Origin: Tomocerus qinae
Taxonomy: Eukaryota > Arthropoda > Collembola > Entomobryomorpha > Tomoceridae
Assembly: GCA_020055645.1 (NCBI GenBank)
Contig: CM034546.1
Location: forward strand, 87,420,001-87,484,000
Length of the DNA stretch: 64,000 nucleotides
Direction of reading: 5' to 3'
Below, one piece after another: positions 6,181 to 42,768 of the stretch. The notes under the pieces were generated by a model, which searched no databases, was not told where the DNA came from, and was given only the letters and a program-made list of their open reading frames with translations. A program made the position numbers and the translations under genes. Numbering within the stretch: the stretch's first letter is position 1; each line of letters begins with the position of its first letter.

Positions 6181-6660
6181 AATGTAAAACAACATAAATA
6201 TATTAATAAATAAATATATTTATATATATTATTATATATTAATTATTATAATAATAATAAATATATAAATTAATATAATAAATATTAATATTAATAATAA
6301 TTATATTATATTATTATTATATAATATAATTATATAATATTAATAATTATGATAATAATATTTTAATATATTAATATCTAATATCATAAATATATCTAAT
6401 ATTTTTATATATTTTTATTATATTATATTATTATATTATTATAATAATATTATAACTATACTATTATTTATAAATAATATTATATATAAAAAATTACGAG
6501 GTTTAATTATATCTTGTATTTATATAAGTTAAAATTTACTAATTATATTAAATTTATCACATTAAAATAAATTAAATGTTTTTATATTATTATATTTTTT
6601 ATAATTAATAACATTAATTAATAACTATTGTGTTTTTGTTCTTTAATATGGTTTTTTTCT
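6181..6660. repeat. AT-rich low-complexity block
   Basis: Almost pure A/T made of ATA, TTA and AAT runs, about 480 bp long, with no internal unit that stays in register. It is followed directly by a 60-bp motif shared with 10936-10993. Confidence 0.85.
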
Positions 6661-6670
6661 TTTCATTTTT

Positions 6671-6729
6671 TTGAAATTTCAAGCACCCTGTTATTAACCC
6701 CGCCCGTAGGACGGGTAACCTTACTCGTA
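6671..6729. repeat. 60-bp dispersed motif with CCCGTCC hairpin, copy 1
   Basis: The segment beginning TTGAAATTTCAAGCACCCTG and ending GGTAACCTTACTCG is nearly identical to 10936-10993. It contains a small palindrome around GTCC-GGAC. Both copies lie within a few hundred bases of the hairpin element at 6749-6846 or 10319-10412, so they may be ends or modules of one larger repeat family. Confidence 0.6.
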
Positions 6730-6748
6730 TGAATAAAATCTTTCCGTA

Positions 6749-6846
6749 GTGTGTTTTAGTGTGTATTTCCATTATCATTTGAGAGCCTGGATTTGGCTCA
6801 GTGGCGTTGGAATGTTACAAACAAATCCAGGCTCTCAACACACACA
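6749..6846. repeat. Hairpin element with tRNA A-box-like core, copy 1
   Basis: GAGAGCCTGGATTT and AAATCCAGGCTCTC form a 14-bp stem around TGGCTCAGTGG, which fits the tRNA A-box pattern (TRGYNNARNGG). No B-box was found, so it is not a tRNA gene. A second copy lies at 10319-10412. It may be a tRNA-derived fragment or a simple foldback. Confidence 0.55.
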
Positions 6847-6973
6847 AGTCACACAGTTCTCCGCTCTTAGCTTATTCCAATTCCACTTCTTTGCTCAAGA
6901 AGTAGCAAAGAAGTGGCATCAAACGGATTTTGAGCGAACAATTTCAAACTGGCGGAGCCAAGTTTTGAAATGA

Positions 6974-8165
6974 AGCGAGATCGTATTCGATCTCCGTCTC
7001 TGCTCCTTCTGCTGTCCGAGTTCTTTATGTAATCTGTGATCTGCTATCTATCAGTTATCCGTTGCCCGTCTGCTGTCAGTGTCAATTGATCTTCGTCTCT
7101 GCTCTTAATGCTTGCTGTCCACGGTCAACTGATCTCCGTCTCTGCTCATACTGCTCTCCGAGTTTATCCTGTATACTACTGTCAATCAGTTATCCGTAGT
7201 CATCTGCTGTCTACTTTCAATTCAGAAAATAAATAAATGCATAAGTAAAATTTAATCTGCTTTCTGAGATTTGCTGCATTGAAGAGGTGGTTGTTGCGCT
7301 TTTCGGTATGTAGACATTATTCAGCCAAAGCTAAAGGAGCCACCCACTTTGCATGTAACTAATACAAAGTTTACTTACGAAAAATTAATAGCAGTAGGAG
7401 CCTGAGTAATTTAGATATTCTGTTATCAAGACTTACTGTATTCTAATCTTTTTCAGCGAGATCGTATTTGATCTCCGTCTTTGATCCTTCTGCTGTCCGA
7501 GTTCTTCATGTAATCTGTGATCTGCTATCTATCAGTTATCCGTTGCCCGTCTGCTGTCAGTGTCAATTGATCTTCGTCTCTGCTCTTACTGCTTGCTGTC
7601 CACCGTCAACTGATCTCCGTCTCTGCTCATACTGCTGTCCGAGTTTATCCTGTTATCTGCTGTCAATCAGTTATCCGTAGTCATCAGCTGTCTACTTTCA
7701 ATTCAGAAAATAAATAAATACGTAAGTAAAATTTATTAACAATTTGTCCGATGTAACTATAACGAAATTTAAATATGAAATATTATGAACTCTAATTCTT
7801 TAACCGCTGCAAAGAGTAGAATGACCATTTCGAGGCTGAATTTAAAATATTTTACTTAAGGGAATCTGACTTATGCTAACTTTTGTGATATCTCTTGGTT
7901 CATTATTGTCGTCTTTGGTAGAATGTATTGTATCATGTCTTTTGCTAGAACTTGATAGGGAATCTGCTTTCTGAGATTTGCTGCATTGAAGAGGTCGTTG
8001 TTGCGCTTTTCGGTATGTAGACATTATTCAGCCAAAGCTAAAGGAGCCACTCACTTTGCATATAACTAATACAAAGTTTACTTACGAAAAATTACGAAAA
8101 GCAGTAGGAGTCTGAGTAATTAAGATATTCTGTTATCAACACTTCCTGTATTCTATTCATTTTCA
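6974..8165. repeat. Segmental duplications (two interleaved modules)
   Basis: A module of about 230 bp (GAGATCGTATTCGATCTCCG onward) at 6978-7225 recurs at 7459-7705. A second module of about 200 bp starting CTGCTTTCTGAGATTTGCTG at 7258-7455 recurs at 7967-8163. The order A-B-A-x-B suggests unequal exchange or tandem duplication of a unit of about 480 bp followed by insertion. The short ORFs at 7468-7680 and 7842-8024 lie in this duplicated DNA and are not supported as genes. Confidence 0.7.
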
Positions 8166-8841
8166 TAATAAGAAAATCAAGAGGCTGAATAAAATTCTTT
8201 GAAAATCGCCTTAGATACGTGGTACCAAGGAGCATGGAGGTTGTCATGGTATAGTAGCGCTTTGTCAGGAGAGTCGAGTAGGGAATTTTACCATAAACGA
8301 ATTTGAGATTTATAAGGGACGTATTTTGGAAAACGTCCCCTACCCCTGTCTTTATCAATCTGCTATAAACATTGCTGTTCCACTTGCTATCCTCTAATAA
8401 TTTAATACGTTTCCAACAGCATAGCAACCAGATATTCACACAAAATTAGGGACAAAATGTCCCTTATAGATCTTCAAAATCCTTTACGGGCAATTCGTTA
8501 CTTGGCTCTCCTTATTAACCGTCCAAGCTCCTTGCGTGGTACTTTAATTTAAAATTTTTCTCCTTAGAATAAATTAAACACAAAACTGTATACCTTACAG
8601 TTCATAGTGATAATCACTATAGAAGAACAAGAAACCTAGAATACAGAAGGAAATGCAAATAATCATATTTTGTTGCTATTGGAAAGTGACGTCATCTGCA
8701 GTACTTTTTAAATGGGAGTTTCGAAATCAATTTTTCGAAATGAGAATTTCCCAATTAAAATGTACTGCAGAGTAAATATTTTTTCATTTATGAGATTTTG
8801 TATGGGGATTTGCCGCGGGCTGATAGAAGAATACTGTAATT

Positions 8842-8953
8842 AACCAATTTATTCTGAAAAGAAGGGGAGGGCAAAATGAAAAATAAGGGAAAATACCTGC
8901 TAGGGTCTTTTCTCTCCTTTTCCCCTCCTCTTCTTTTCAGAATAAATTGGCTC
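8842..8953. repeat. Foldback, CCAATTTATTCTGAAAAG arms
   Basis: CCAATTTATTCTGAAAAGAA at the left is matched by its reverse complement ending at 8953, with arms of about 29 bp and a GGGAGGG/CCCCTCC inner stem. Related ends recur at 9015, 9150 and 9187, so several members of one small family lie side by side. Confidence 0.65.
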
Positions 8954-8997
8954 ACTAAAGCATTCTTCTATAGTAGTTGTCAATATGAACTAATGTA

Positions 8998-9177
8998 GGG
9001 TATACAGTTTTGTGCCAATTCATTCTGAAGAGAAGAGGAGGGATTTTAAATTAAAATTAGCTAAGGTGGTTTTCGAAAAATTTGAATAGAATACAGGAAG
9101 TCTTGCTTATGAGCTTTTTTAATTTCAAATTCCTCCTCTTCTCTTCTCAATAAACTAGCACAAAACTGTATACCCTA
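8998..9177. repeat. Foldback flanked by GTATACAGTTTTGTG ends
   Basis: GGGTATACAGTTTTGTG at 8998 is mirrored by CACAAAACTGTATACCC at 9161-9177. Inside, GTGCCAATTCATTCTGAAGA is mirrored near 9119-9160. A lone copy of the outer motif occurs at 8580-8597. This is a small nested inverted-repeat family without coding sequence. Confidence 0.65.
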
Positions 9178-9410
9178 TAGATTTAGTGTGCCAATTTATT
9201 CTAAAAGGAGAGGAAGCGAGAATGGGGATAAAAATCCTAGAATAATGATTTTAATAGCAAATGGTAATCGATTTTAATTTCCTTTTGATTTTGATAGCCA
9301 ACAGTAATCGATTTTAATTTGATTTTGATAGCCAATATTAACCAATTTTAATTATCTTTTAATTGTGAATATTAAAGCCAATATTAACATGTTATTTTTT
9401 GTGACGGATA

Positions 9411-9994
9411 ATGACTACGAAAAGAAAACACAATTGTGGTCTATCAGCAAATGGAAGAAGTCCAACGGCAAGCTATCAAAGCCAATCATCTACACAATGT
9501 AGTTCAGCTTTAAATTCGCCACAAACTGATATGGGGAAACTACCAGTATCAAAATTTAAGCGATTTTGCTCAAAATGCCGGCTCTGCATCCACGATTTCT
9601 ACAAAGAGGGTAAATGCAAATTATGATTAGGAAAACTTGCGTTTAAATTTAGCTAAGAATTAAGGCTTCGGGAAACTAAACTGTACTTTTTATAATTTCA
9701 GAGAAATGTTCACGATGCCAGTATGTCATTGAGCATGAAATGCCAGAATTGGTGGGAAAGGATGAGGATGAATGGTCGTGGTGTGAAGGTTGTCACATCG
9801 CCCCTGTGAAATCAAATTATATGTGCTGCATGATCTGTAATACTCCAACTCTCCTTGCAGCTCATGCTGAGCATCAAAGGCAGGTAGATGATTTGCGTGA
9901 AAAGTTAACAAAAGAAGATGAAAAGCTTCGTGAAACATTGATAATGACTAAAAAAGTGGTAGTTCCTGTTGATAAGGAAGATTCTATGGAATAA
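9411..9994 (+). CDS. Small zinc-binding, coiled-coil protein of unknown function (two exons)
   Basis: Two exons, 9411-9609 and 9702-9994, join across a 92-bp phase-1 intron (GGTAAAT donor, TTTCAG acceptor) to give 163 residues. The start is the first ATG of the open frame. After a Ser/Gln-rich N-terminus of about 48 residues come four CxxC-type pairs: FCSKCRLC, KCSRCQ, WCEGCH and CCMIC, spaced like a treble-clef, PHD- or RING-type zinc fold. A charged helical segment (HAEHQRQVDDLREKL onward) and an acidic end (VDKEDSME) follow. An AATAAA signal lies about 26 bases past the stop. The frame is intact on both sides of the intron, which argues for a functional or recently functional gene. No TIRs clearly bracket it. 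I do not recognise the family; a nucleic-acid-binding or transposon-cargo protein is possible. Confidence 0.7.
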
Positions 9995-10019
9995 TTTGTC
10001 CATTGGTTTTCAATTTTTG

Positions 10020-10025
10020 AATAAA
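10020..10025 (+). terminator. Polyadenylation signal AATAAA
   Basis: AATAAA followed by a T-run, 26 bases after the stop codon of the zinc-binding gene. Confidence 0.6.
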
Positions 10026-10079
10026 ATTTTTTTTCTCGGAATTTTAAGAGTTACAGAGTATTCAGTTTAATGTTTTATT

Positions 10080-10260
10080 CCTAAAAGTTGTAGCAAAAGT
10101 GGGAGAATTCCAATTCAAATTCCTAAATGGTACAACATAATTGGGAGACGTCCAACTCAAATTTCTAAATGGTGTAGCATGAGTGGGAGACTTCCAACTC
10201 AAATTCCTAAATGGTGTAGCATGATTGGGAGACTTCCAACTCAATTTCGAAACTTAGTAA
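10080..10260 (-). repeat. 42-bp minisatellite, proximal block
   Basis: Four diverged 42-bp units. On the minus strand each encodes 14 residues of the type FRNLSWKSPTHATP with no stops. Separated from the distal block (10440-10800) by inserted DNA containing the hairpin element at 10319-10412. Confidence 0.75.
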
Positions 10261-10318
10261 ACACGGATAGAGTTAAATTCTTAACTTTAAAGGTTTCTTA
10301 TCACTCTTATAAGTTTGG

Positions 10319-10412
10319 TGCATAGTGTGTGCTTCCGTTATCATTTGAAAGCCTGGATTTGGCTCAGTAGCCTTGGAATGTTACAAAAACAATCCAGGCT
10401 CTCAACACACAA
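10319..10412. repeat. Hairpin element with tRNA A-box-like core, copy 2
   Basis: Same layout as 6749-6846: AGCCTGGATTTGGCTCAGTA with the matching AATCCAGGCTCTC arm and flanking GTGTG/CACAC. It sits in the spacer that interrupts the 42-bp array. Confidence 0.6.
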
Positions 10413-10439
10413 ACGAAATAAAATAATATTATTATACTC

Positions 10440-10800
10440 TCGGCTTGCCCAACTTATTTCTAAAAGCATAATTGGGAGACTTCCAATTAAAGTTCACTAA
10501 AGGGGTGAAAGTGGGAGACTTCCAACTCATATTCCTAAATGGTTTAGCATAAGTGGGGGACTTCCAACTCATATTCCTAAAAGGTGTAGCATAAGTGGGG
10601 GACTTCCAACTCATATTCCTAAAAGGTGTAGCATAAGTGGGGGACTTCCAACTCATATTCCTAAAAGGTGTAGCATAAGTGGGGGAGTTCCAACTCATAT
10701 TCCTAAAAGATGTAGCATAAGTGGGAAACATCAAAATCATTTCCTAAATTGTGTAGCATGGTTGGGAGACTTCTAACTCAAATTCCTAAACTTGGTAAAC
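10440..10800 (-). repeat. 42-bp minisatellite, distal block (14-residue repeat frame)
   Basis: About eight units containing AGTGGGGGACTTCCAACTCA. The minus-strand frame at 10432-10740 is open for 102 residues of FRNMSWKSPTYATP repeats. Because 42 is a multiple of three, an open frame is expected once one unit is open. The central units are nearly identical, so homogenisation is recent. No flanking gene structure supports translation. Confidence 0.75.
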
Positions 10801-10935
10801 ACATGGGTATAGAGCTAAATTCATAAAGGTTTGTTATTTAGAAATAAAAAGGGAAATTTAAAAAGTTTTTGTAAACAATAAATTTTTGAATATTTTTTAA
10901 AATACTTTTCAATGGTTTTTGATTTTTTTGGTTTG

Positions 10936-10993
10936 TTGAAATTTCAAGCACCCTGTTATTAACCCCGTCCGTTGGACGGGTAACCTTACTCGT
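10936..10993. repeat. 60-bp dispersed motif with CCCGTCC hairpin, copy 2
   Basis: Near-identical to 6671-6729, with CCCGTCCGTTGGACGGG as the palindromic core. Confidence 0.6.
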
Positions 10994-11026
10994 GTATATA
11001 TATAGAAAATTAGGCGATTCGGCTTT

Positions 11027-11937
11027 GGTCCATATACTCACTAGCTTTATTTATAACAGGGCCTGGGCCCAAAGCTGGTGTAGGCATGGTAAAGTTGGTC
11101 TTTCCGGTCATATTGAAATTGGAATTTCACTTTTTTTCGTCGTGGATCTAAATTGAATGATTTAGATCCACGGCTTATGACCAAGCCATAGTCAAAATTT
11201 GGTTGCTCCTCGGAACGTGACGTCATACATATCTGAGGTGATAATAGCCGTGGATCTAAATCGTTCAATTTAGATCCACGATGAAAAAAAGTGAAATTCC
11301 ATTTTCAATTGCCCGGAACGGTCAACATTATTATGTAAACCATCTCACTATGACTACACAAGCTTTGGCCTGGGCCCTATGACCGGCTAGTCTATATAAA
11401 TAATGTCTTAGAAGCGACTGAATAGTCATGTATCATGAGGCTCAGTTGTATCGCTTTGCCGAAGGCCTCGCAAAGGCTACTCCGGCCCTGTATATAGTGT
11501 TATAAGTAGTAGATGGTAATAGTAGGAGTACTAGTAGTAGTAGTGGATGTATTCTCGGTGCAGACAGAGTAGACAGTTGGAATTGTGTGACAGGAGAGTT
11601 CAAGTATTATTGATGAGTTGCCATAAATAGAGCTATTCATTTCTGTCAGACCTCCGCAGCCTCTACAGATTGCCTCATATTTTATTTTCGTCTTGATACA
11701 TCCATATTACATCCCTCTTCTCATTTGTCACTCTGTCCATACACCAGCACTAGTGATACTCACTCTTCCGTACATCTATCTATTACCTATACCCTCTTGT
11801 CCTTCGATCACCTTTACCCTACCACCGTCTACATTACAAATACCTATTCCCCTATTATTAGATTAAATCCTTATATTATAAGAGCCGGTCACAGGGCCCA
11901 GGCTCTGTTATAAATAAATCTAGTGAATATATGGACC
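11027..11937. mobile_element. Nested foldback element, outer arms about 45 bp
   Basis: GGTCCATATACTCACTAG with TTATAACAGGGCCTGGGCCC at the left is mirrored by GGGCCCAGGCTCTGTTATAA to 11937 at the right. Inside, 11055-11395 is a second imperfect inverted repeat with two GTGGATCTAAAT palindromes and ends AGGGCCTGGGCCCAAAGC / GCTTTGGCCTGGGCCCT. The rest (11400-11880) is a TAG-rich microsatellite and non-coding DNA. A relative of the inner element lies at 33795-33960. Confidence 0.55.
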
Positions 11938-16376: not shown

Positions 16377-16690
16377 AATTAAAAATTTTTACCCCATGGA
16401 TGTGCAAGTCATACGAAAGTTTGAAGGCATGGACTGTCATGTCATAAGATAGAGACATGAGCTTCCTCTATGCCAATACCAACACTGGTGTTGTAAGCAG
16501 AAAAGAATAGAAAAACGGTTAGCGATTACTGCCACATGGGATAACAGTTCAATACTGGAAATAACAATAAATGCGTGTCAGAGCCGCAGGGAGGGGGCCA
16601 GTAGTATAGAGGGGGGTATACGGCCCATGCATGGATAGATATGGACCTACTCCTTATACATGGATAGGTATGCACCTAAAGCTTGTGTTC
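16377..16690. other. Non-coding stretch with a partial hAT-like end
   Basis: Contains GAGCCGCAGGGAGGGGGCCA near 16579, resembling a decayed CAGGGCCGCAG end. No partner end or target duplication was found. Confidence 0.35.
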
Positions 16691-17149
16691 ATTTCTCCCT
16701 ATGAACTCAGGCACACATGCAGTCTCCCCATGTTCTCAGGCACTACATGCATTCTCCCTTCATTCTCAGGCACACATGCCCCTTTCTTAAACATGGAAGC
16801 AGGTATACAGCTAAAGCTTGCCTTTATTTGTCCCTATGTACTCAGGTACATGCATTATCCCTATGTACTCAGGTACATGCATTATCCCTATGTACTCAGG
16901 CACATGCATTATCCCTATGTACTCCGGTACATGCATTATCCCTATGTACTCCGGTACATGCATTATCCCTATGTACTTAGGCACATGCATTATCCCTACG
17001 CACTCAGGCATATGCATTATCCCTATGTTTTCAGGCACATGCATTATCCCTACGCACTCAGGCATATGCATTATCCCTATGTTTTCAGGCACATGCATTA
17101 TCCCTATGTTTTCAGGCACATGCATTATCCCTATGTTCTTAGGCACATG
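16690..17149. repeat. 27-bp minisatellite
   Basis: At least eleven units of 27 bp containing CATGCATTATCCCTATGT, with variable GTACTC / GTTTTC / GCACTC segments. Diverged, longer-period versions occupy 16690-16830. All frames are open because 27 is divisible by three (for example a 9-residue MHYPYVLRY repeat), so the 246-codon ORF is not evidence of a gene. The array continues at 17938-17990 on the far side of an inserted hAT-type element. Confidence 0.85.
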
Positions 17150-17929
17150 CAGGGCATGAAAAACCCAAAAACCCGGGTTTTTGGGTTATTGGGTGGGTTT
17201 TTGGGTAGCAAAATTAGCAAAAACCCGGGTTTTTGCTATGAAATGGGGCAATGTGAAAACCCAAGGATTAGAGCAGAATACAAGAACCCTAGTTTAAAAC
17301 ATCCGTTATTCCTATTCCTGGTTGGAGTAAGGCAGTGGTTGCACAAATACCTATCAATGTTATTGTTTTAATTAGGTTAGGTTAGGTCCCTCGAAAGCGG
17401 GTCCTGGCATGCCCTGTGTATTTCATGGCGCGATATTTTAAATTTGCAACCACTGTCTTACTTCAACCCTATTCCTTAATCAACGTAATGGGCAACTGAT
17501 ACAAGTAATTATTTGTCCATCCAAAATATTGAGATAAACAAGTTATGTTTATCTCAATATTTTGGAAATAAATGGAATACTTTCAATATTATAGTTGTCA
17601 AGTTCGTCTATATTAAGTCGCCTCCATACCTAATAACTACTTAATAACTTGCCAACCGAATATTTGATCAATATACTTTTGAGATTACCGTCAAATTACT
17701 ACAAATCGAATCGACAAATTCACTTTCATTATAATAAAAGTCTTCTTCCAGATCGCCCAAATAAAGAATCAAAATAAATATTAAGTTTGAATATGGAACA
17801 ATAGTAGAAGTCCAGTGAACCACAGTAGATGGCGGATACTACTGCAAAAACCCAATAACCCCAAAAACCCAGCAAAAACCCAAAAAGGCGGGTTTTTCCT
17901 AGGAAAAACCCTGCCTTTTTCATGCCCTG
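17150..17929. mobile_element. hAT-type non-autonomous element, TSD GGCACATG
   Basis: Begins CAGGGCATGAAAAACCC and ends GTTTTTCATGCCCTG, with GGCACATG on both sides (17142-17149, 17930-17937). Subterminal AAAAACCCGGGTTTTT-type palindromes are strong. It landed inside a 27-bp minisatellite unit. The interior holds an inverted repeat (17310-17346 with 17437-17467), a perfect 19-bp hairpin (17520-17565) and no transposase. A relative with the same subterminal motifs is at 43994-44750. Confidence 0.88.
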
Positions 17930-21800: not shown

Positions 21801-22067
21801 ATTAAGCATCACTGAACACGACATCTACCGTTTACTTTTAAAGTTGTTAAATAGAGAAGAAGCAATTTATTGTTCTAAAGCGTGTTAGCATGTGATATGG
21901 GTAGGGAGGAGCAGAGGCGGTAGTAGGAAATGTAAACAAAAACCATGTGGTTAACATTCCTTCAACCATCATTCAATTTTTGTTTTGGTTATCGTCTTTA
22001 CTGTACTTGAATATTGTCCTCGTTCAAGCAATTGTCTTACCGTTGTCGGCTGCGAATCTTGATGTCT

Positions 22068-23246
22068 TGTGCTTTTTTCGACGTGCTCTTTTCGTTGGCG
22101 GTGGTGGTAAGTTTACTATAGACTTTTTTGACCTCTCCTTTTTCGTAAAAGGACAATTCAAAATAAAATTCTTCAATACCACAGTTATTAAAGTTAAATT
22201 TTTTTGTTTGTATGCAGATCTTCTTGCTGGCCCGTCGTTGACGGCGTTCTCTCTTGATTGATTGCTTTTTTCGACGTGCTCTGTTGGTTTGTTGTCGTGG
22301 TAAGTCTGCTATAGACTTTTTTGACCTCTCCTTTTTCGTAAAAGGACAATTTAAAAATAAATTTTTTAATGCCACATATTTTAAAGTTGAAATTTTTTGT
22401 TTGTATGCAGCGTTTCTCTGGCTGGCTCGTCATTGACGGCGTTCTCTCTTGATTATTGTTCTTATTTCGGCTGAATTTTGTCAGCGGTACTGTTTCCTCT
22501 GTCTCCGCTAAGAGGTATGGGGGTTAGGGGCAACAGCATAACAGTGGCAACAGCGGCGACACAGCTATAACCACTAGCGGCAACAGAGACACAATAATAT
22601 TATTTCCTCTGTTGCCGCTAAACCTAATATAACCCAGTGCACTACTGCTCTGAGCTCAATGCTCTATAAGAGCAGCACAACGATATGGATCATATACTGA
22701 TATACCTCTGCCACTTTTACCAGGTTGGTTGGAGACAGCTGAACTTTATTCATGTCGCTGTGTTGCTCTTAGACCATTGAGCTCAGAGCAGCAGTGCACT
22801 GACTTATATTATGTTTAGCAGCAACAGAGGAAATTAGATTAATGTGTCTCTGTTGCCACTGGTCAGTGTCACCGCTAGTAGTTGTAGCATGTTGCCACTG
22901 TGCAGTTATGCTGTTGCCACTAACCCCCGTTATCCCCCAAGAGCAACAGTGGAGACAGTGACAACAAAGTACCGCTGACTAAATTCAACCTTTTTTCGAC
23001 TTGCTCGGTTGGTTGGCTGTCGTGGTAAGTCTGCTATAGACTTATTTCACCTCTCCTTTTTCGTAAAAGGAAAGGACATTTTAAAAATAAATTTTTTAAT
23101 GCCACATATTTTAAAGTTGAAATTTTTTGTTTGTATGCAGCGTTTCTCTGGCTGGCTCGTCGTTGACGGCGTTCTCGCTTGATTGATTGTTTTTTTTCAA
23201 CGTGCTCTGTTGGTTGGCGGTCGTGGTAAATTTGCTGTAGACGGGG
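22068..23246 (+). repeat. Tandem array of exon/intron-like units, about 197 bp
   Basis: Units start TTTTTTCGACGTGCTCTGTT at 22074, 22266 and 22991, plus a partial one from about 23190. Each has a GTAAGT donor-like site followed by CTATAGAC, an internal TTTTTCGTAAAAGGACA hairpin, and a TTTGTTTGTATGCAG acceptor-like end about 110 bases later, then GACGGCGTTCTC. The last, partial unit runs directly into the exonuclease start codon. The array therefore looks like a repeatedly duplicated 5' leader with its intron. A MITE (22470-22989) interrupts it. Confidence 0.7.
22470..22989. mobile_element. MITE inside the leader array, 9-bp target
   Basis: Ends GCTGAATTTTGTCAGCGGTA and the complement of GTTGAATTTAGTCAGCGGTA face inward. 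CTTATTTCG at the left and CTTTTTTCG at the right (8 of 9 identical) are probable target copies. A second inverted repeat (AGTGCACTACTGCTCTGAGC with its complement) is nested within. MULE-like by target length; no gene. Confidence 0.65.
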
Positions 23247-24273
23247 ATGGTGGACGCTGAAATGGATGAAGACACAGTATTTTATGAACCCTCATTTGTT
23301 GTAAGTAAACCGTTTTACAGTTTTCTAATAATTTCTAATAATTTTAATACCAACATTTTTCTAGGGGGAAACCTTGCAATGGTTGAGTGGACCGCACAAA
23401 GATCGTCGAGCTGATTTTTTGAAATGTCTCATCGCTTTATTTCCTGAAGATGAATTCAAGCATATCCAACAAATATTGCACCATGAAACTACGAAATTAG
23501 GAAAAAGACAAAAGAAGGCTGCAGCTGAAATAGCTGCAAAGCAAAGGAAGAATGTGGACCAAAGTTCATCAAAGGCTGTGGTGTACCCTGTGGTATCACA
23601 AGTGGCTTTCCCAGCCCAAGATGAACTCTGGTGGAAACCTTTCGTCGGAAAAACTGTTTCACTTGATGTAGAATTTGTATCCAAGCCCATTGACATCAAA
23701 AATTGCACTATGTTCGTCAGAACCTTGAACCGATTGAAGACAATCTCGTTTAAATTGAACTGTAATTCTCGGATTAAATGCAAGCAATATGCAGCGATAA
23801 TTTCAATTTGCGATGAAGACATGAAAAAAGAAAGCATGAAAGTATTTCATGAACCTGGTAGCTTTTTGGTAAACAAATTCACAGTTCCTATAAACGGAAT
23901 AAAGTGCGAGTCTTTACTAAATGCCTCCAAGATGGAAAAAGTGAGGGAGTGGGTACAGAAGAGTATAGAAGGGAAATTATTGATTTTGTCCGGTGGGGCC
24001 AATGATATTAATACTTTGGGTTTAAGAAAAGGACAGCTTAATGCCTTTGATTTGCAAGACCATTACGTAAGGATGAGTAAGGAAGGAATAGTACCACACA
24101 AATTAAAAAGTCTTGGTCACGGATTATTGGGAGATAAAAACTTTCAAATGGGTACGCATGATTGTTCTGCTGATGCTGAGATGACTATGTGCATATTTAA
24201 AGAACATTATTGTACATTAAATGTCAAACGTTGTGACCAAATAGAATACAATAATATAAGAGTGATGAAATGA
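23247..24273 (+). CDS. DEDDh 3'-5' exonuclease (RNase T/ISG20-REX4 type), transposon-borne
   Basis: Exon 1 (23247-23300) and exon 2 (23365-24273) join in phase 0 across a 64-bp intron (GTAAGT ... CTAG) to give 320 residues. The exonuclease fold follows a charged N-terminus of about 110 residues. Exo I is SLDVEFV (D119, E121), Exo II is GGANDINTLGL (D232), Exo III is HDCSADAEM (H283, D288). All five catalytic residues of the DEDDh class are present with the expected H-x4-D spacing. Such enzymes trim RNA or DNA from the 3' end using two metal ions. No signal peptide or membrane segment is seen. The gene lies inside the P-type element, downstream of the leader array, and has AATAAA 33 bases after the stop. 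The transposase beside it is broken but this frame is intact. Its role in transposition or defence is unknown. Confidence 0.85.
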
Positions 24274-24305
24274 TGTTTGCTGATAACTTCTATTAGAGCA
24301 CAAAT

Positions 24306-24311
24306 AATAAA
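24306..24311 (+). terminator. Polyadenylation signal AATAAA
   Basis: AATAAA 33 bases after the exonuclease stop and about 30 bases before the end of the oppositely transcribed transposase gene. Confidence 0.6.
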
Positions 24312-24341
24312 ATGCAATGACTAATTTGTAAATGATATGAT

Positions 24342-27300
24342 TTATTGATGTCTTAAATCCTCCCTAGTCTGTGTAGAAGATTTTACATCTTTGTAATTTT
24401 CATTTTTTATCCGTATCAATTTAAAAATTTTGGCTCGCAAAAACAATTTCACAGCCAAATCTCTGTGCTCCTTACATTCTTCGTCGGTATTTTTTAGCCA
24501 AGAATAAATCAAGTCATTCCGTTTTAACAAACGGTAAACGCTTCTCAAAACAAACGTACCTTCGTCGTTTAAGGCTTCCCGTAACAAAGGTCTAAATTTT
24601 TTCCCAATTTCAATAAAGACATCTCTTGTTTCCTGGTTCAAAATGTTACTGTAGGACATTTCAACGTTGTCATGAAAATTAAATCTTGCTTTATGCAGTA
24701 GCAATTGGTCCTCATCACTTAAGTTTTTTACGAAGCACAGTAATTGTTTACATACATTGTTTACAGTTTGCCATGTAGACGTTTACGTTTGAATCTTTTA
24801 GTGGAACGTCTTCCATATCCGCCAACTCGAAAAAGTCATTGATCATAATGTCTGTTCTTGTCTCGTCGTTAGACTCTGCTAGTTTCTGAACAGCTGCTTT
24901 CAAATTCATTTTCTGATTATGAAGAATTTTCTATGTTGTTACCTACTTATAAAGTAGTGTTTTTACTAGATTTCTTCTGATACAAGACTTGTTCAAATTT
25001 TTTCATATTTTCAATTAATAGAGTTGTCTTTTCTGTATCCTCGCAGTTTTTTCCCTCTGGATTTCTTACCAAATTAACTATATAACAGGTATCGGGAATT
25101 CTGTCTAAATTGAACTGTCGTTGGATTGTGATTAGTACCTCCCCGTTGCCTTTGAAAACTGAAATAGTTCTCTAGACAGTCTTGCTGTATTCTCCGCGTT
25201 AAAACGTAGCCATAACCTTCCTGCTTTAAATCGGTAATTAAATGACGAATTCCGCAGATTGATTTCACCAACCCAGAAATACAGTCCGGTTTTCTTTTAT
25301 TTCCCGGCATTTCCCAATTTTTAACCCACTTTTGAAGAGTTTGTAGCTTTTCAAGAAACATAAAAATGCTTCTACCTGCTTTCCATGGTTTCAGAAAATC
25401 ATTTTCTGCTGATATATTCAGTAAGTCGAATATAAAATCCATTTTTTGGATCCAATTGGCGGTTGCTAATGTTGCTTTTCTCATGGATCCCAGCTTTACG
25501 CAAGTATAAATTGCTTCTGCCACCGATTTACTTAGCAACTGCGTGGCTAATTTCACCTTTTGTTTAGACAGTGTTTTTACATTCATATGATATTGAGTTA
25601 ACTTTGTCATTCTGTCACTGGTTGCAGAGTCTATGTCGTATAAACGTTGTACGTGAGCCCATCGAACTTTTTTGCCGTTTACATCAAATCCTGACTTTTT
25701 AAAGTGATTTCTTATTAACTTTATTAAATGTGGCGTGTCATATACCATGTAAATTTTACGCCCATTCAATTGAGAGCTTGATTATTAAAACCCATGTCAC
25801 TGACAATTATTCGAACTTTAATTCCCACTTTGTGCAACTTTTCTAGACATTCTTCTAAATTAGTTTGCAAGTCATTAGTCGTAGTGTTGGTTTCGCTGAA
25901 ACCGAAACTCAATGGGAAGATCCAATCTGTATTTAAGCCTCTAATCATAGTTACTGATGCTTGCGTTGCAGGAACAAGTCTTCGACGGTGATTGCCGTGA
26001 TCTTCTATTCCTTCTATTTCGTCAGTATTTTTATTATAGCCAACTAGTTTTTTAATGTGCATTTCATCAAAACATAAGATGGCGTCCTTTTCGTATTCGT
26101 TCATATAACTGGCTCTTGCAGAAATGCACTCTAACAGACAATCATTAAGACCAGGTTTTATTTCGAATTTTCTAATCAATCGCTTCACCGACGACAAGGA
26201 TGGCAGCTTTATCCCTAATTTTTGAAGGGTCCGGTAACCATTTTTGCCACAGGAATAGAATATTGTGAGTGCAAGCGTTTTTTCTTCATAATTGTAAAAC
26301 TTTCTTGGTGATTTGAAACGGGATATTTGGGACAAAATGAGTTGTAATAAAGATGGAGAATCTTTAAATAGATCCGTTACAGAATCTTCGATAGTTTTTT
26401 TTGGCGATGTTAATCTTTTTCTTAGCCTTCTATTTCTTTCCGTTAGAACCTTGTTTTTTCGTTTGAGGGTTGTTTTTGGGGACGGGAACAACACTCCATT
26501 TGGAGGTAACGCCACGTCCCCAAAATCCTCCTCAATTGAAGTGTTTGGTGTTTGACATTCGGTTGAACTGGAAGTAGCTAAGTCGTTGGGTGAGATCTGA
26601 GACGTCAGTGATGTAAATAAGGTGTTCGGTTGCAGTTCCATATCCAAAGGCGAACAGGGATTGTAAGAAAACACAGATTGGCCAATTGATATAAATGTCG
26701 GTGAAAGTAATATTTGTGTCTGTGGACATTGTGGCGGGGTGGAAGTTGAATTTATAAGTGGTTGAGATGGCATTTGCACTGTTGATAACTGTTCGAATGT
26801 TACAACTTGACTATTTGATGTGGGAGTTGCATTTTGATTAGATGACATGTACACAATTGTTTCTGTGTTGAATACGGCACTTTGATCAGCTGGACTTCGT
26901 GATTGAGATGATGAGTTAGTAATTATTGGCTCCTGAATAAGTTAATACAATGTCATATAAATATTCAACATTTATAAAACACTCCACCAAATTTGAAACT
27001 GAATATTGTGGATTTTGATGATAGCATGAATGGTAAAACAGTTACTGAATTTATGAGGAAATTATGTGTTGGGTAAACGGTCGTTGATGGCAAGTTTTCT
27101 ATCGGAAGACTTTGTGGTTGACGTGATAAGTCACTTGCCGTCGGTGGATTTGGTTTCTGAAATTATTAATTGAAAAATTATAATTTTAATATTGTACTTT
27201 TTGATATGCTTGTGGTAGTATTTGGGCTACATTGATAGCTAATGTAAAAATTAATGTTATGTGGCCATACTTCTCAATCAAAAATAATACATAAATTACT

Positions 27301-27800
27301 ATATTACCAACGCAGAGCTATTAACGGGATTTGGAAATGAGTTCTGATTCAATGTTCGAAGTGGCGAATTTTTCTTCATTGGTACCGCAGTTTTAGATAG
27401 TCTAGTTTTCTTTAAATCCGTAAACAGGGTGTTTTCGAAATGGTTTTCACACGCGTAAAAGATCTTATATTGTTGACCACAAGGAAGTCCAAATGATTTG
27501 CACCAAATGTCATATCTTAAATGCAATTATTAGCGTACATTTTGATAATTAAACATAACGTAACACAATAACAAAATATAATTGAAAAAAACATTTCTAT
27601 CACTAATATGCAATGTTGTGGTAAAAACACGCATTTGCGGTAACAACACACAACATTGCATTTGTAATATAAGTTGATTGTTAAAAAAATCCCAGATATT
27701 AACAAACTTACCTGCCAGGTTCTTTAGGAAATTGGAAATAAGATTTTCTGAAATTGTGAGTTGCATTTTTGCATCCCGGAACACAACAAACCCTCGGCAT
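24342..27800 (-). pseudogene. THAP-domain P-element-type transposase, frameshifted
   Basis: Exon 1 (27800-27712), exon 2 (27515-27308), exon 3 (27156-27046) and exon 4 (from 26932) join in phase. The N-terminus is a complete THAP zinc finger: VCCVPGC (C6/C10), W34, C52-x2-H55 and AVP at 73-75. A Ser/Thr/Pro-rich linker and a basic RKNKVLTERNRRLRKRL segment follow. The RNase H-like domain shows LCFDEMHIKK, RGLNTDWIFPLSF, VSDMGFNNQ and YDTPHLIKLIRNHF. Next come QDCLENYFSFQRQRGG and a C-terminal HRDLAVKLFLRAKIFKL, all P-element family signatures. Frame breaks occur near 25775 (probably with a short deletion), near 25078 and near 24752; a 54-bp intron likely lies around 24916-24970. The copy cannot make a full transposase. 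THAP would bind the element ends. Confidence 0.85.
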
Positions 27801-28059
27801 GATGAAATGTTGAATTCTGTGACTGGGATAAAATTTGTGTTTGCCTCAAAGATATTTTAATCCCCGCTCTTCATCAAGATTGGATGGCTGGCATGGTTGT
27901 TAATTGGTTTGCTAGCTGGGTTTAATTATAGGCTGTCGAGGGGGGAAATGGTGGGCTAAGGCGTGTTTAGTTGACCATAGGCTAATGTGCAGAGATAGAC
28001 CTTCTCTATTTAACAACTTTAAAAGTAAACGGTAGATGTCGTGTTCAGTGATTAAGCAT

Positions 28060-32279: not shown

Positions 32280-33794
32280 TATTTTTATTTTTTATTTTTT
32301 ATTTATTACTGACGGTCCCTACGGGCTCGCGCCCATGGACGCCAGGACAATTTACAATTACAATGTATATTGTTATGCTTGACATTTGTTTGTTATATTT
32401 TATAGGCTAGTTTATTATATACTATATCTCTGCTCTATATACTATACCTATTTTTAGATTAATACAAGTTTTTGTTTCTTATAATGTTATGTACTAATAA
32501 AATTATTACAATAATATTAGTACGAGTTGCATATTCCTCGTTAAATAATGCTTATGATGTCACATTCACATAATTTCATACTTTATATCTCTAGTTGACC
32601 TGGTACTGTAAATATACATACAATTTATTTTTCCATTAGCAAATTCTTATTATGCACTCACTCAATGAAAATAATTTTGCTGACACATATCCTCACATAT
32701 TCTACCAACACTGGGACTATTTTTTTTTTGTCATGTCAAACTCATCTACATCCACATCATCCAGAATTCCTTACTTATTTGACCCACTTATTTTAAGGCT
32801 GTTACCAATAATTAATTCTGCACCTAGTTTTTACTGTTTTACCATTAATCTTTACGTTGTTAAAACAAAATAAAATTACACTCTTTTAGCAATGTCCACT
32901 CTTATTTGCTGCTTTTCCTATCCTAATTAAAACACATTCACATTTGTTCGTAACCGCCTGCTGGGTATACTGCAGTCAGTCCATTTTTTCAACATGCCCA
33001 TCCTTATTGACTCGGTATTTTTCCTCATTCCCGTTAATTTCCACCGTAAGTGTACCGCCCTTTATTTGTGTTTTTATGCCAGTGTTCCTGTCTTTCCAGA
33101 TTTTTGCTGTGTCGCGTAATAGTTTGTCTTCTTTAGCCTGCTTTGCTGTTTTTTCTGGATCAATGAAAATGTATTTCATGTCTTCTTTTTCCCTTAATAA
33201 TTTCTTTGCCATCAGGATTCTGTTCTTGTCTTTTTTCTTTGTCACTTTTACTATTATTGGTCTAGGTTTTTCCGTTTTTCTGCCAACTCTTCTAGTGTCC
33301 GCTATGTTCACAGATTTTACTGCGATCTTGTCTAACAGTGCCACTACTTTTTTCTCAGTTTCGTCAGGATTTTCGTTTTCATCTTCATCAATTCCCGTAA
33401 TACGGATGTTCATCTGTATCGCTTCACGTCTAAGAAATTCGTTTTCGTTTTCCATATCATCTATTCTTCTTTCTAACCCCTCAATGTCGCTTTTTATTTC
33501 CTTAAATATTTTCTTCACAGCCAAATTATCATCCTTCAGCTCACATATACATATGTACAGTTTAATCATTTTGTCCTCTTTCGATAGTTTTCTAAATTCA
33601 CTCTCCATTGCTTGCACATTATTAACGTTTGCACTTTGTTTTCTGCCACTGGAAAATTTTCTGTTCATTTCGTCTAGTAACGAGCCTCTAAACAAGATCA
33701 CTATTGCTTGGTGTGCGATTATACTGTGCAGTGCTCTAGCTGAAGAGCTAACTAGGTCAACGACTTGCTCTGGTGCTGTCTCAAATGCTACTCC
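32280..33794 (-). mobile_element. ORF1-only (half-LINE) non-LTR element with 15-bp TSD
   Basis: TTGTGGATCTAAATT stands at 32265-32279 and 33795-33809. On the minus strand the element runs from within ORF1 to a 3' end of CCGTAGGGACCGTCAGTAAT followed by an A-rich tail (AATAAATAAAAAAT). The 700-bp region after ORF1 contains no reverse transcriptase. A target duplication plus A-tail shows retroposition of this ORF2-less form, like mammalian HAL1 half-LINEs by analogy. The target is itself a palindromic repeat related to 11140-11290. Confidence 0.8.
32976..33793 (-). CDS. LINE ORF1-type RNA-binding protein, 5'-truncated but open
   Basis: The frame is open from the element's 5' edge to a stop at 32976 (about 270 codons; no ATG before DEMNRKF, so the true start is lost or internal). 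It shows a coiled-coil-like segment (KKIFKEIKSDIEGLERRIDD), then an RRM-like core starting MNIRITGIDEDENENP with RRVGRKTEKPRPIIVKV and a basic C-terminus (KDKNRILMAKKLL, KDRNTGIKTQIKGGTLTVE). This order matches ORF1 of L1- and jockey/CR1-type LINEs. ORF1 proteins bind LINE RNA and chaperone it. It is homologous in layout to 39429-39968. Confidence 0.75.
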
Positions 33795-33960
33795 TTGTGG
33801 ATCTAAATTGTCAAATTCAGATCCACAAATGAAAAAAATGAATTTTCAATTTTCAAATATCCGCTTGAGACTACCTTACTAAAGCACATACACATCGGTC
33901 TCACTATGACTACTACCTAAAACTGCAGCAACTTTGGTACAATCAAGGAGCTTTAACTGG
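33795..33960. repeat. GTGGATCTAAAT palindrome element, right part
   Basis: GTGGATCTAAATTGTCAAAT and CAGATCCAC form a palindrome, followed by ATGAAAAAAATGAATTTTCA and TCTCACTATGACTAC. The same series lies at 11256-11365. The half-LINE inserted into it. Confidence 0.6.
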
Positions 33961-38607: not shown

Positions 38608-39312
38608 TGCCAAGACTTAGGAAGAAGAGTGTCGAACAAAAAATGCAAGAAATGCGAATGAGGGCAGAAAGTAAGAGGAACGATCCAAATACAAGAGAAA
38701 AAATTCAAACACTCAATCTCATCAAAAAGCCAGACAAGACCACGGTTATCGTCAATCGGAACAAATTTTAAATACTGACGCCCACAGGAAAGCAAGAAAA
38801 AACCCCCATTGTCGCCAATCTGAACAAGTTGCTAATACTAAGGCCCACAGGGAAGCAAGGAAAGACCCCGGTCGTCGCCAATCTGAACAAATTGGTAATA
38901 CTAAGGCCCACAGGGAAGCAAGGAAAGACCCCGGTCGTCGCATATCTGAACAAGTTGCTAATGCTAAGGCCCACAGGGAAGCAAGGGAAGACCCCGGTCG
39001 TCGCATATCTGAACAAATTGTTAATACTAAGGCCCACAGGGAAGCAAGGGAAGACCCCGGTCGTCGCCAATCTGAACAAATTGCTAATACTAAGGCCCAC
39101 AGGGAAGCAAGGGAAGACCCCGGTCGTCGTATATCTGAACAAATTGCTAATACTAAGGCCCACAGGGAAGCAAGGGAAGACCCCGGTCGTCGCATATCTG
39201 AACAAATCTCTAATACTAAGGCCCACAGGAAAGCAAGGGAAGACCCCGGTCGTCGCCAATCTGAACAAATTGCTAATACTAAGGCCCAAGGGAAGCAAGG
39301 GAAGACCCCGAG
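38608..39312 (+). pseudogene. 21-residue-repeat protein gene, 63-bp tandem array
   Basis: ATG at 38608 opens MPRLRKKSVEQKMQEMRM and a first repeat (AESKRNDPNTREK). After a 1-base frame change near 38724 the reading continues through about ten 63-bp units encoding 21 residues with the core KAHREAREDPGRRQSEQIA. Units alternate Q and I after GRR and are otherwise nearly invariant. All six frames are open over the array because the unit is a multiple of three, but only this one links to the basic MPRLRKK start and matches the relics at 2890-3324 and 4202-4800. The array stops abruptly at a CTGTC-type repeat. Function unknown; it is predicted to be a long charged helix. Confidence 0.6.
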
Positions 39313-39315
39313 TAA

Positions 39316-39425
39316 TTCAGAGGAGTTTACTCCGATGTATGCGTTTACACTTTCTGTCTGTCTGTCCGTCCGTCCGTCCTTATGTGCGATAACTTTCGAA
39401 CGGTTTAAGTTAGACAATTCAAATT
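39316..39425 (+). repeat. CTGTC-type repeat fragment
   Basis: GAGGAGTTTACTCCGATGTA and the CTGTCTGTCTGTCCGTCCGT start, GATAACTTTCGAACGG, then cut by the LINE at about 39425. The same start is at 37265. Confidence 0.65.
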
Positions 39426-39428
39426 ACA

Positions 39429-39968
39429 TTGGCGGAAACTAAAGAGAAAGTGGATCAGCTGGAACATAAAGTCAACAAATATGAAGAAGCGTTGCTGCAA
39501 TTACAGAAAGAAAACCTAAGGCTAAAGACGGAACTCCAGTCGAAAAATCTAATCGTCCAAGGGGTAGAAGACATGGACAGCGAAGACAGCAAAACCTCAA
39601 CCAAAAAAATTGTAGAAATACTAAAAGATATCAATGTTAATGATGTCTCCTTTGATTCAGTTTATAGAATCGGCAAAAGGAAGGGCAACTCAACACGACC
39701 CATAAAGGTAAAGCTGACCAAAGAAGTGGACAAATTCAGAATCATGAGCAATGCAAAAAAACTTAAAAACATGGACAAGCACAAGGGCATCTCCTTCAAG
39801 GACGATCTTCCTGCAGAAGTAAGAAAAAATCGAGCTGTATTAAGGAAAGCTAAAACAGAAGCCGACGCACAAGGACACACTACAAAATTAAGAGGAGATT
39901 CATTGTTTATAGGCAGCGAAAAATACATCGCCGAGAATGGCATTCTTAGGAAGTGCCAAAAGCTATAG
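39429..39968 (+). CDS. LINE ORF1 protein, 5'-truncated
   Basis: About 179 open codons. There is no ATG; the frame opens with TTG after a nearby stop, so the natural start has been lost. It shows a coiled coil (EHKVNKYEEALLQLQKENLR), an RRM-like core (NLIVQGVEDMDSED, VYRIGKRKGNSTRPIKVKL) and a basic C-terminal domain (GISFKDDLPAEVRKNRAVL). This is the typical nucleic-acid chaperone layout of LINE ORF1. It shares the VGRK/IGKRK...RPIxVKxTK block with 32976-33793, so the two LINEs belong to related families. The stop at 39968 is followed by ORF2 after a short gap. Confidence 0.7.
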   Translation: MAETKEKVDQLEHKVNKYEEALLQLQKENLRLKTELQSKNLIVQGVEDMDSEDSKTSTKKIVEILKDINVNDVSFDSVYRIGKRKGNSTRPIKVKLTKEVDKFRIMSNAKKLKNMDKHKGISFKDDLPAEVRKNRAVLRKAKTEADAQGHTTKLRGDSLFIGSEKYIAENGILRKCQKL

Positions 39969-39993
39969 GAACGAGCCAGCAATTCACAAAACA

Positions 39994-42768
39994 TGAAAAA
40001 TCTTCTTATCTGGTACTGGAACGCAGATGGACTGGTAAACAAAAATACTTTTGATAAATTACAACCAAATATATTTTGTATAGCGGAAACTTGGCTTAAT
40101 ACTATAGAAAATATTCTGGCTAAAAATACCTTTAAAAAATTATGTAAATTATATAATATTAAGAGTTAAAACCAGAGTTAAGAGTTAAGAGTTAAGAGTA
40201 AACCAAGAGGCCAAACAAACCAGCCAAGAACAGCAGGTAATCAAACGAATTAGATGGCGGGATGATAAAAGCAAACTTTTCAAACAGGCTCTAAAGGAAA
40301 TACACTCACAATTAAACGAAGAAAAACCTAGCTTGGACTCGATTTGTGCAAGAATATATACTGCAGCGGAAGCATGTGGAATAAAAACTACAAGTTCGGA
40401 TGACATAGTATACCCACAGAAATGGATGGACCTTGAACTGATGAACGCAAAGCGAAAATATAAATCAATGGCAAGAAAGTTCAGAAAATGTAATAAACAT
40501 CATGACTACGGCTACTACTCGGAAATTAAAAAGAGATTCCTCACCGCAAAGACCGACTTTCTCTACCTGTCGAACACTAAAAAAGCAGAGTATTTTAATA
40601 ACATACATAACAAACTATTATCGTCTAGGGACTCAAAGGAATTCTGGGACGCAATAGAAGTTTACAGATGCGGAGACAGACAAAAAATATATGGCGATAT
40701 CGAAATGGAAAAGTGGCAAAACCACTTTAAAACTGTATTTACATCTAAGCAAGAATTCAGCGTAAGAAACCCAACCCAGATAAATATTACAGACGTGAGA
40801 CTTGATGCGGATATCAATATGTTTGAGCTGAATCTGGCACTGAAAAAATTAAACAACAACAAATCCCCCGGGGAAGACGGAATACCAAATGAAATATGGA
40901 AGAACTTACAAACAAACTAAAGGAAGATTTGGTAGAAATTTTCAACGAGATTCTGAAGAAACCAAACTCTATGTCTGAGAACTGGGGCCGTATACTAATT
41001 ATCCCCATATTTAAAAAAGATGACGCCTCTGACCCAAGTAACTATCGCCCAATTTCGCTTATTAACACTGTAGTAAAATTATTTACATCTATATTAACTA
41101 ACAGACTGGATATATGGTGCTCAAAAAACAAAAAAATTAATGAATGTCAAGCTGGATTTAAGAAAAAAACAGGCTGCGAGGAGCAAATATTTGTGCTGCA
41201 TACAGTTATACAGAGCCAACTTAAACTAAAATATGGAAAACTTTTCTGTTTGTTTGTAGACTGTTCCCAGGCCTTTGATTCCACAGAATTCAATCTATTA
41301 TGGAATAAACTAGAAAAAGCAGGACTCAGCACTCAATTTATCAACGTGGTGAAACATTTATATAGTATTGCACAAGCATCAATAAGAGTACATCAGGGAA
41401 GAGGAAAAACTATTATCTCAGAGTCGTTTCCAATCTCACGCTTAGTATTACAGGGCGAGTCAATGAGCCCAAAATTATTTACCCTGTTTCTGGATGACGT
41501 AGTGGATGCCATTAACTCACTAAATGTACCCGGAGTGAAAATTAAAAAATATGAACTGCATATCCTGATGTTTGCCGTTGACATAGCGCTATTTGCATAT
41601 ACAGCACCACAGCTACAAGATAAAATAAACCAATTAAAAATCTTCTTTGAAACCAACTACCTGAAGGTCAACCTATCGAAAACAAATGTTGTAGTTTTCA
41701 GGAAGAGTAACAAGATATCAACGACACATCTTTATTGGGGAGAGGAAAGGATCGAAAACGCTAAATGCTACAGGTACTTATGAGTCGCTTTCTACTCAAA
41801 CGGCATCCTGAAACGGACAAAAGCAAAATTTCTGGAAAAAGCTAACATGGCTCTAGATGCTCTACTATCACTGTTTCGTAAGGTTAAACTCTTTCAAGAA
41901 ACAAGAAGAACTATTCAATTCCTTGGTCCGCTCTGTTCTCTTTTATGGAGTAGCAATTTGGGGAGCAAATTATCTAGATGACTTCGTCTCATTCCAAATA
42001 AAATTCCTAAGAAAAACATTATACGTACCAAATGAAGCCCCGAGATGGAAATTACTACTAGAAACAAATGCTCAACCCATAGAGATAGCATATCTCAACA
42101 TATTATTAAGATTCATAGCTAAGATGAAAATGAAGTCTGAAGGATTAGTCAAGAGTTGCTTTGAATGGCAAGAGGAGAAGCACGAGGAAATGGATACAAA
42201 GTACTGCTGGTACAAACAAACCCAAGCAGTTCTAAATAAATATGGAATACAACACGTAATCAGGAACAAAAGCCCACCCTCAAAACGCGAAATTAAGAAC
42301 ATTCTTGCTGGGGTACGAAGTAATATTGACAACTCAAACATAAATCTAGTGCAAACACATAAAACTTGCCAATATTATAGTATTAAGCCAAAGATAGGAA
42401 CAGAGAGCTATCTTAACTCCAATGTTAATTGGAGAATTACCCGTCTAATGACGCAGTTAAGGTTTAATTTAGGGAACGTTAATTTAGATGGTAAAACACA
42501 TTGGTTAAATGGTTCAAGGGTAGGTAACTATAGAACATGTGAAAATTGTAATACTGGAGAAATGGAAGACTTGCACCATGTTATGTTTAAATGCCCGCAC
42601 TATGGCTTACCTAGAAATAAGTACCTTAAAGATTTTAACCTTAATGTCCTGAAAGACAAAAATGACTTTATAAATATATTCTGCCAAATAGATAAGAAAA
42701 AATCAATTAATTTATATATGTTTTGGAAAATAGTGATAAAGATAAGAACTTTTATAATGGAATTTTGA
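39994..42768 (+). pseudogene. LINE ORF2: endonuclease fragment, reverse transcriptase, zinc knuckle
   Basis: From 39994 the first strand of an APE-type endonuclease is seen (NLLIWYWNADGLVNKN, FCIAETWLN); the rest of that domain is deleted. Reverse transcriptase blocks follow: NNNKSPGEDGIPNEIWK, YRPISLINTVVKLF, GFKKKTGCEEQIF, LFVDCSQAFD, VLQGESMSPKLFTLFLDD. The catalytic box is FAVDIALFA in place of FADD, a lost aspartate. A frameshift near 40900, a TGA at about 41781 (after YRYL) and another frame change near 41885 break the frame. The C-terminal part (41857-42768) holds LFYGVAIWGANY and a CENCNTGEMEDLHHVMFKC zinc knuckle. It is inactive. Confidence 0.88.

Follow-up and report, generated by a model that had tools for sequence, protein, structure and literature searches.

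In the usual description, a cut-and-paste transposon consists of ends and a transposase; what, then, is an exonuclease gene doing inside one? The question is raised by a 6,241-bp P-type element of the springtail Tomocerus qinae, bounded by terminal inverted repeats (TIRs) at positions 21810–28050 of a 64,000-nucleotide stretch of contig CM034546.1 (the window). Between its TIRs the element holds a gene for a predicted DEDDh 3′–5′ exonuclease next to a broken P-type transposase gene. The exonuclease is under selection, lies tail-to-tail with transposases of three superfamilies (P, hAT and PIF/Harbinger) and is altered at RNA-reading positions of its host relatives. The case offers a way to test how accessory genes pass from one transposon superfamily to another, and whether the target of the enzyme is transposition DNA or host RNA silencing; it also reveals a P lineage producing 9-bp target-site duplications (TSDs). 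We are highly confident of the identification itself, that is, of a P lineage with 9-bp TSDs that carries a selected, convergent DEDDh gene of ISG20/REX4 type, the same family occurring beside one group each of hAT and Harbinger transposases.

An exonuclease gene inside a P-type element

The element and its flanks are laid out as follows (window positions, strand in brackets):

21801..21809 (no strand): left TSD copy, ATTAAGCAT, 9 bp
21810..21859 (+): left TIR, 50 bp
22070..23246 (+): exonuclease leader, a repeated unit of about 195 bp, interrupted by a nested insert
22469..22989 (no strand): nested MITE-like (miniature inverted-repeat transposable element) inverted-repeat insert in the leader, placed by eye
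23247..23300 (+): putative exonuclease exon 1, 18 codons, then a GTAAGT donor
23301..23364 (+): putative exonuclease intron, acceptor AG at 23363–23364
23365..24273 (+): putative exonuclease exon 2, 302 codons, no internal stop
24342..26941 (−): P-type transposase, catalytic part and C-terminus, five frame segments, pseudogene
27299..27526 (−): stop-to-stop frame with the second half of a THAP-like domain
27712..27800 (−): first transposase exon with the start of the THAP-like domain (MPRVCCVPGC...), placed by eye
28001..28050 (−): right TIR, 50 bp, same as left
28051..28059 (no strand): right TSD copy, ATTAAGCAT, 9 bp

The initial annotation had described perfect 50-bp TIRs and a 9-bp target duplication, and both were borne out at 21810–28050. 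The first 50 bp of the two TIRs are identical, with mismatch beginning at base 51, and a search of the window with the TIR's initial 30 bp matched these two sites only (at most 3 mismatches; none expected from 100 shuffles). A 9-bp TSD is present in all four elements with a clear TSD, its sequence varying between elements; no clear TSD was detected at the ends of one further copy (L011, described below). The 9-bp length is unlike the 8 bp of Drosophila and zebrafish P elements: Drosophila P and zebrafish Pdre2 have a related transposase and TIRs but differ in their 8-bp TSDs and in TIRs of 31 and 13 bp, and the word exonuclease is absent from the main texts on both (PMC7776569, PMC10983969). 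The window lineage belongs to the P superfamily by its transposase and is not a canonical P element.

Three Pfam domains score above cut-off in the window transposase (TNP-like RNaseH_N, GBD and RNaseH_C), and the transposase frame of a related copy (L012) matches the Drosophila P transposase (PDB 6p5a; E = 5.7e-50). Of the THAP/P-type transposase that had been annotated, the P-type assignment therefore stands; the THAP domain (PF05485), scanned in one exon alone, reached E = 0.0021 and 19.2 bits, below the cut-off of 23.9, with a Cys/His pattern seen by eye, and the gene is a pseudogene here, its frame changing four times, which the initial annotation did not mention. The unbroken, spliced exonuclease annotated inside the TIRs was recovered in full, the splicing being predicted from the letters of the gene. 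Exons 1 and 2 encode a predicted 320-residue protein in which the DEDDh set is complete (D101, E103, D214, H265 and D270 in exon-2 numbering), and the exon end EEPSFV in a related copy (L023) resembles the end of window exon 1.

The exonuclease beside P, hAT and PIF/Harbinger transposases

The T. qinae assembly was searched (334 Mb in 115 contigs), and all counts of genome matches given here are lower bounds. Both genes lie between TIRs with perfect 9-bp TSDs in four elements, that of the window and three others, and their convergent order is alike in all of them. The element at C1:40579074–40590088 (11,015 bp, TSD GACGTGAGG) has about 93% DNA identity to that of the window, one change of frame each in exonuclease and transposase, and a leader holding about 5.7 kb of other DNA. 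Within this nested DNA (about 5840–11570 of the joined loci L012+L013), two similar THAP-like frames in opposite orientations were seen by eye. The other two elements belong to a related subfamily and lie near C1:125.58M (7,318 bp, TSD GACCAAGGC) and near C1:17.76M (5,291 bp, TSD GTCTTCAAT); their exonucleases are broken and 55–58% identical to that of the window. Near C2:69.87M, a pair known from its frames and not from its ends has both frames unbroken, running 349 and 814 codons from stop to stop, its exonuclease being 37% identical; for the P element E26, only a degenerate left end was found. Since three other TSD-bounded elements carry both genes, likewise convergent, a separate nested insertion of the exonuclease is ruled out.

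P transposases at least 60% identical to that of the window occur at nine genomic loci, eight of which have an exonuclease within 10 kb; together with the three further TSD-bounded elements, this makes the exonuclease a regular part of this transposon lineage. The ninth locus, L011 (C1:74592941; element C1:74588290–74595211), has suffered an internal deletion and lacks the transposase C-terminus as well as the exonuclease. Part of its gap between leader and transposase is filled by a 109-bp tandem repeat with about 14 units (L011 3792–5291). A genome search for the TIR, proposed as a check in the initial annotation, gave 13 matches at 10 places: both genes are present at two of these and the transposase only at one (L011), and at seven neither gene was found within the stretches fetched. 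Among the P copies, three that are about 99.7% alike have one stop and one frame change of the exonuclease in common; since their likeness breaks off at the exonuclease-side TIR, they moved after the exonuclease had broken.

The family extends beyond P elements, to relatives that the initial annotation had not noticed. Matches to the window exonuclease and to a distant relative (33 and 37) merge into 32 exonuclease loci in the genome, 25 of which have a transposase no more than 10 kb away: P-type at 8, hAT at 12 and PIF/Harbinger at 5. The linkage expected by chance is 0.18 loci for P and 0.10 for hAT. Counted from the transposases, linkage within 10 kb was found for 8 of 93 P loci (from 106 matches), 12 of 52 hAT loci (from 67 matches, second fragments being merged in both sets) and 5 Harbinger matches, 33 of 146 having been tested. 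All 11 hAT loci with at least 57% identity over at least 290 residues are linked, along with one remote hAT locus, as are all five Harbinger loci with at least 45% identity over at least 220 residues. Highly identical hAT fragments also occur without linkage (81% across 64 residues and 63% across 128), and one unlinked Harbinger match has 45% identity over 142 residues. Within each superfamily, the exonuclease goes with the closest transposase relatives and is absent beside remoter ones. Exonuclease and transposase are cleanly convergent in 24 of the 25 pairs, with strands read from the search output; the remaining locus (L033, C2:0.33M) is rearranged, its nearest transposase piece being convergent and other pieces lying on the other strand.

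The hAT relatives include L029, L031, L032, L037, L038, L045, L047 and L048. A Dimer_Tnp_hAT domain was found in L029 (E = 5e-9) and a DUF659 domain in L061 next to L037 (E = 1e-8), and the others among these eight were typed by likeness to the transposase of L037. At all eight, an end CAGTGTTCG(A/G)T lies just upstream of the exonuclease and the DNA beyond it differs, so the exonuclease lies inside the hAT element. No 8-bp TSD was found for the hAT element E37 (L061+L037+L062), which abuts a second, short copy; at 2095–2881 this deleted hAT copy stands head to tail with the full one, both with CAGTGTTCG ends.

The PIF/Harbinger relatives are L030, L036, L044, L046 and C1:8.94M, and transposase kin adjoin all five. 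The element of L030 carries DDE_Tnp_4 (PF13359, E = 2e-19), and a Myb/SANT partner (PF13873) is present in L030 and L036. Two Harbinger copies, at C1:80.06M and C1:17.11M, are 99.4% alike over 3.4 kb. Because no element ends were found when looked for in the Harbinger element E30, the Harbinger case is one of adjacency of exonuclease and transposase only.

Selection, kinship and origin of the exonuclease

The two closest copies, those of the window and of the C1:40.58M element, differ in the exonuclease by 49 synonymous and 19 nonsynonymous changes over 301 codons, giving nonsynonymous and synonymous rates (dN and dS) of 0.027 and 0.336 and a dN/dS of 0.08 (bootstrap 0.045–0.134); the transposase gives 0.10 (0.057–0.151). 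The ratio is thus not near 1, the outcome that the initial annotation had named as contrary to its reading, and the exonuclease gene is maintained by purifying selection. That it is a chance reading frame was rejected, as wrong-frame controls of the same alignment returned 1.36 and 7.4. Among other exonuclease pairs, dS is saturated for distant hAT and Harbinger ones, and the close hAT pairs differ too little, giving dN/dS of 0.22–0.37 with intervals that extend past 1. In an alignment of 24 of the 32 exonuclease loci plus one metagenome protein (P0001), the five DEDDh residues are kept in all 24 rows with letters and the ExoII Asp in 25 of 25.

Kinship of the family to ISG20 and ISG20L2 is seen with profiles, where single sequences failed to show it. 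The single window exonuclease matched Pfam RNase_T suggestively only (E = 0.0015; 19.6 bits, under the cut-off of 24) and no exonuclease in the PDB by phmmer, and single-sequence PDB and Pfam searches with exonuclease copies returned no exonuclease or spurious names only. PF00929 has three matches at two places in the T. qinae genome, none at loci of this family. A joint profile searched against the PDB found ISG20L2 (5.2e-12) and ISG20 (1.2e-11) first, followed by PAN2; TREX and ERI1 chains were absent up to E = 1. Profiles built from one superfamily each likewise placed ISG20L2 or ISG20 first (P 0.0025, Harbinger 9.8e-9, hAT 2.9e-9). The family is ISG20/REX4-like as judged from these profiles: it shares the DEDDh domain with ISG20, ISG20L2 and REX4, the best solved relatives of its profile, but these are host genes, while the transposon copies carry an additional N-terminal region and do not keep both 2′-OH contacts. 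P0001, 38% identical to the window exonuclease and with all five DEDDh residues, was the sole relative found in the metagenome protein database, by single sequence and by a two-row profile; a nine-row profile gave no match there at E ≤ 0.01 and missed its own row P0001, which makes it uninformative. Pattern scans of IMG/VR and GTDB with A2 gave 121 and 130 matches, none of them confirmed.

Two features tie the copies together across superfamilies. They share the N-terminal region, which precedes the catalytic domain and the stretch matched by ISG20, and in five of seven copies examined, across P, hAT and Harbinger, the intron acceptor lies six codons before a conserved Trp. The acceptor position of the window is common to E23, the hAT copies L037 and L031 and Harbinger L030; the hAT copy L034 has one extra codon, and the P copy E26 has no intron at the shared position. 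The shared region and intron position suggest that the exonuclease probably moved between the superfamilies after one capture from a host ISG20/REX4-like gene. In an unrooted tree the copies group largely by superfamily (support of 99 for Harbinger, 98 for the main hAT group and 99 for all non-P copies); L034, the remote hAT copy, is placed apart from the hAT group with support of 72, and P0001 joins two P copies at only 50. We infer that exchange was ancient and rare and that the gene then stayed in place for long. The same grouping would also suit an independent origin in each superfamily, with P, hAT and Harbinger elements each having captured a host ISG20/REX4-like gene and no transfer among them, and a host gene may already have had the N-terminal region and the intron acceptor; however, the N-terminal region, the acceptor codon and the convergent placement are all shared, and we consider separate captures quite improbable.

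An accessory DnaQ-type exonuclease has precedents among DNA transposons. KolobokD, a DDE transposon lineage of mollusks, arthropods and cnidarians, likewise has an accessory DEDDh (DnaQ-type) exonuclease, but it belongs to the Kolobok superfamily with TTAA TSDs, in contrast to the P transposase and varied 9-bp TSDs of the window lineage, and its exonuclease is described as exuperantia/TREX/ERI1-like, whereas the T. qinae family matches ISG20, ISG20L2 and PAN2 (PMC9587614). Dada elements (Laccaria, Ectocarpus) combine a DnaQ-like 3′–5′ exonuclease with a transposase distantly related to those of P and hAT; there, a DEDDy domain sits within the transposase, whereas T. qinae has a separate convergent DEDDh gene (PMC3706591). 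Fungal TET/JBP transposons also hold one accessory family across superfamilies, including hAT and Harbinger, but with another enzyme, in other hosts and in relation to methylation-based silencing (PMC12730594). In searches of an open-access library (Repbase Reports and most subscription papers lying outside this scope), we found no exonuclease gene in P, hAT or Harbinger elements, in agreement with the initial annotation, whose author knew of no described P element with one; nor did we find an ISG20-type transposon exonuclease or one shared by three superfamilies. The same tail-to-tail placement beside P, hAT and Harbinger transposases suggests a helper gene held in common by unrelated DNA transposons.

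What the exonuclease may do

Our favoured account joins the identification above to an origin and a function. A host ISG20/REX4-like gene would have been taken once by a transposon and passed among the P, hAT and Harbinger superfamilies; its protein would act in trans, trimming the exposed single-stranded 3′ DNA ends left by cut-and-paste transposition, and this trimming would steer repair at the donor or target site. For P elements the substrate would be the 17-nt 3′ extensions that cleavage is described as leaving. The authors describing KolobokD and Dada propose 3′-end processing for those exonucleases as well (PMC9587614, PMC3706591). Taken as a whole, the account falls slightly on the doubtful side of an even balance; the trimming of DNA ends is its least certain part, and we offer it tentatively.

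Several observations weigh against this account. No P, hAT or Harbinger transposase was found near 7 of the 32 exonuclease loci. The single capture is unproven, as the tree contained no host gene. The exonuclease is not needed in cis, three P copies having spread with a broken gene, although supply in trans would permit such spread. P, hAT and Harbinger transposases cut ends differently, and one shared DNA substrate is not obvious. The closest characterised relatives of the exonuclease are described as preferring RNA. Two ISG20 residues, Met14 and Arg53, are reported to contact the ribose 2′-OH; in columns matched by eye from the profile alignment, Arg is found at the Arg53 position in none of 23 rows with letters, which speaks for a DNA substrate, but Met14 is kept in 11 of 24, namely in the main hAT group and kin without an assigned superfamily.

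The strongest rival to DNA trimming is that the exonuclease is an anti-silencing RNase, degrading or trimming small RNAs or the RNA duplexes of convergent genes and so shielding the element from RNA silencing. Such an enzyme would act in trans and be useful under any transposase chemistry. Its kin ISG20, ISG20L2 and PAN2 are all RNases, and plant SDN1, a DEDDh enzyme with an ISG20-like catalytic domain, is described as trimming Argonaute-bound miRNAs. The convergent order of 24 of the 25 linked loci could yield overlapping 3′ ends, and sharing across superfamilies resembles that of the fungal TET/JBP dioxygenases, which are proposed to counter silencing (PMC12730594). On the other hand, the 2′-OH contacts of ISG20 are not both kept, and the related Kolobok and Dada elements have recruited DnaQ-fold exonucleases of other subfamilies, which fits a role on DNA. 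We regard this as a serious possibility, though a rather doubtful one.

A more specific version, which we judge unlikely, would be a portable counter-defence in which an ISG20-derived exonuclease, passed around among P, hAT and Harbinger elements, breaks down small RNAs of the host, those with 2′-O-methylated, piRNA-type 3′ ends included; lacking the residue pair with which ISG20 reads the 2′-OH, the enzyme would attack ends that its ordinary kin spare. If true, unrelated transposons share one anti-silencing tool. Finally, elements with a broken exonuclease still spread, as they would if the host gene were passive cargo carried without benefit, but purifying selection at a level like that of the transposase disfavours this reading, the catalytic residues are kept in distant copies and the nearest transposase relatives carry the gene (8 of 9 in P, 11 of 11 in hAT and 5 of 5 in Harbinger), which leaves it very improbable.

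Leader repeats and neighbouring features

Each unit of the repeated leader ahead of the window exonuclease has a GTAAGT-like donor and a TATGCAG acceptor, making the units candidate untranslated exons. The MITE-like insert at 22469–22989 is flanked by CTTATTTC and CTTTTTTC, near-identical 8-bp repeats, and is foreign to the original element. No tandem repeat of at least 60 bp was found upstream of the exonuclease in L012+L013, E22, E23, E30, L031, L034, E37, L038 or L048. Tandem repeats of about 193–363 bp lie upstream of the exonuclease in the window element, L009, L010 and E26 (L053+L026+L054), all of P type, and in L036 and L044, the two Harbinger copies with such repeats; the units contain exon-like pieces in the window and E26.

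Elsewhere in the window, the long open frames at 16610–17371, 38675–39442 and 51126–51655 are tandem repeats read as short repeated peptides. LINE-like (long interspersed nuclear element) frames were recognized by eye at 39414–42768, a coiled-coil first frame being accompanied by reverse-transcriptase-like frames, and a second first-frame protein lies at 32976–33845 on the minus strand, also judged by eye.

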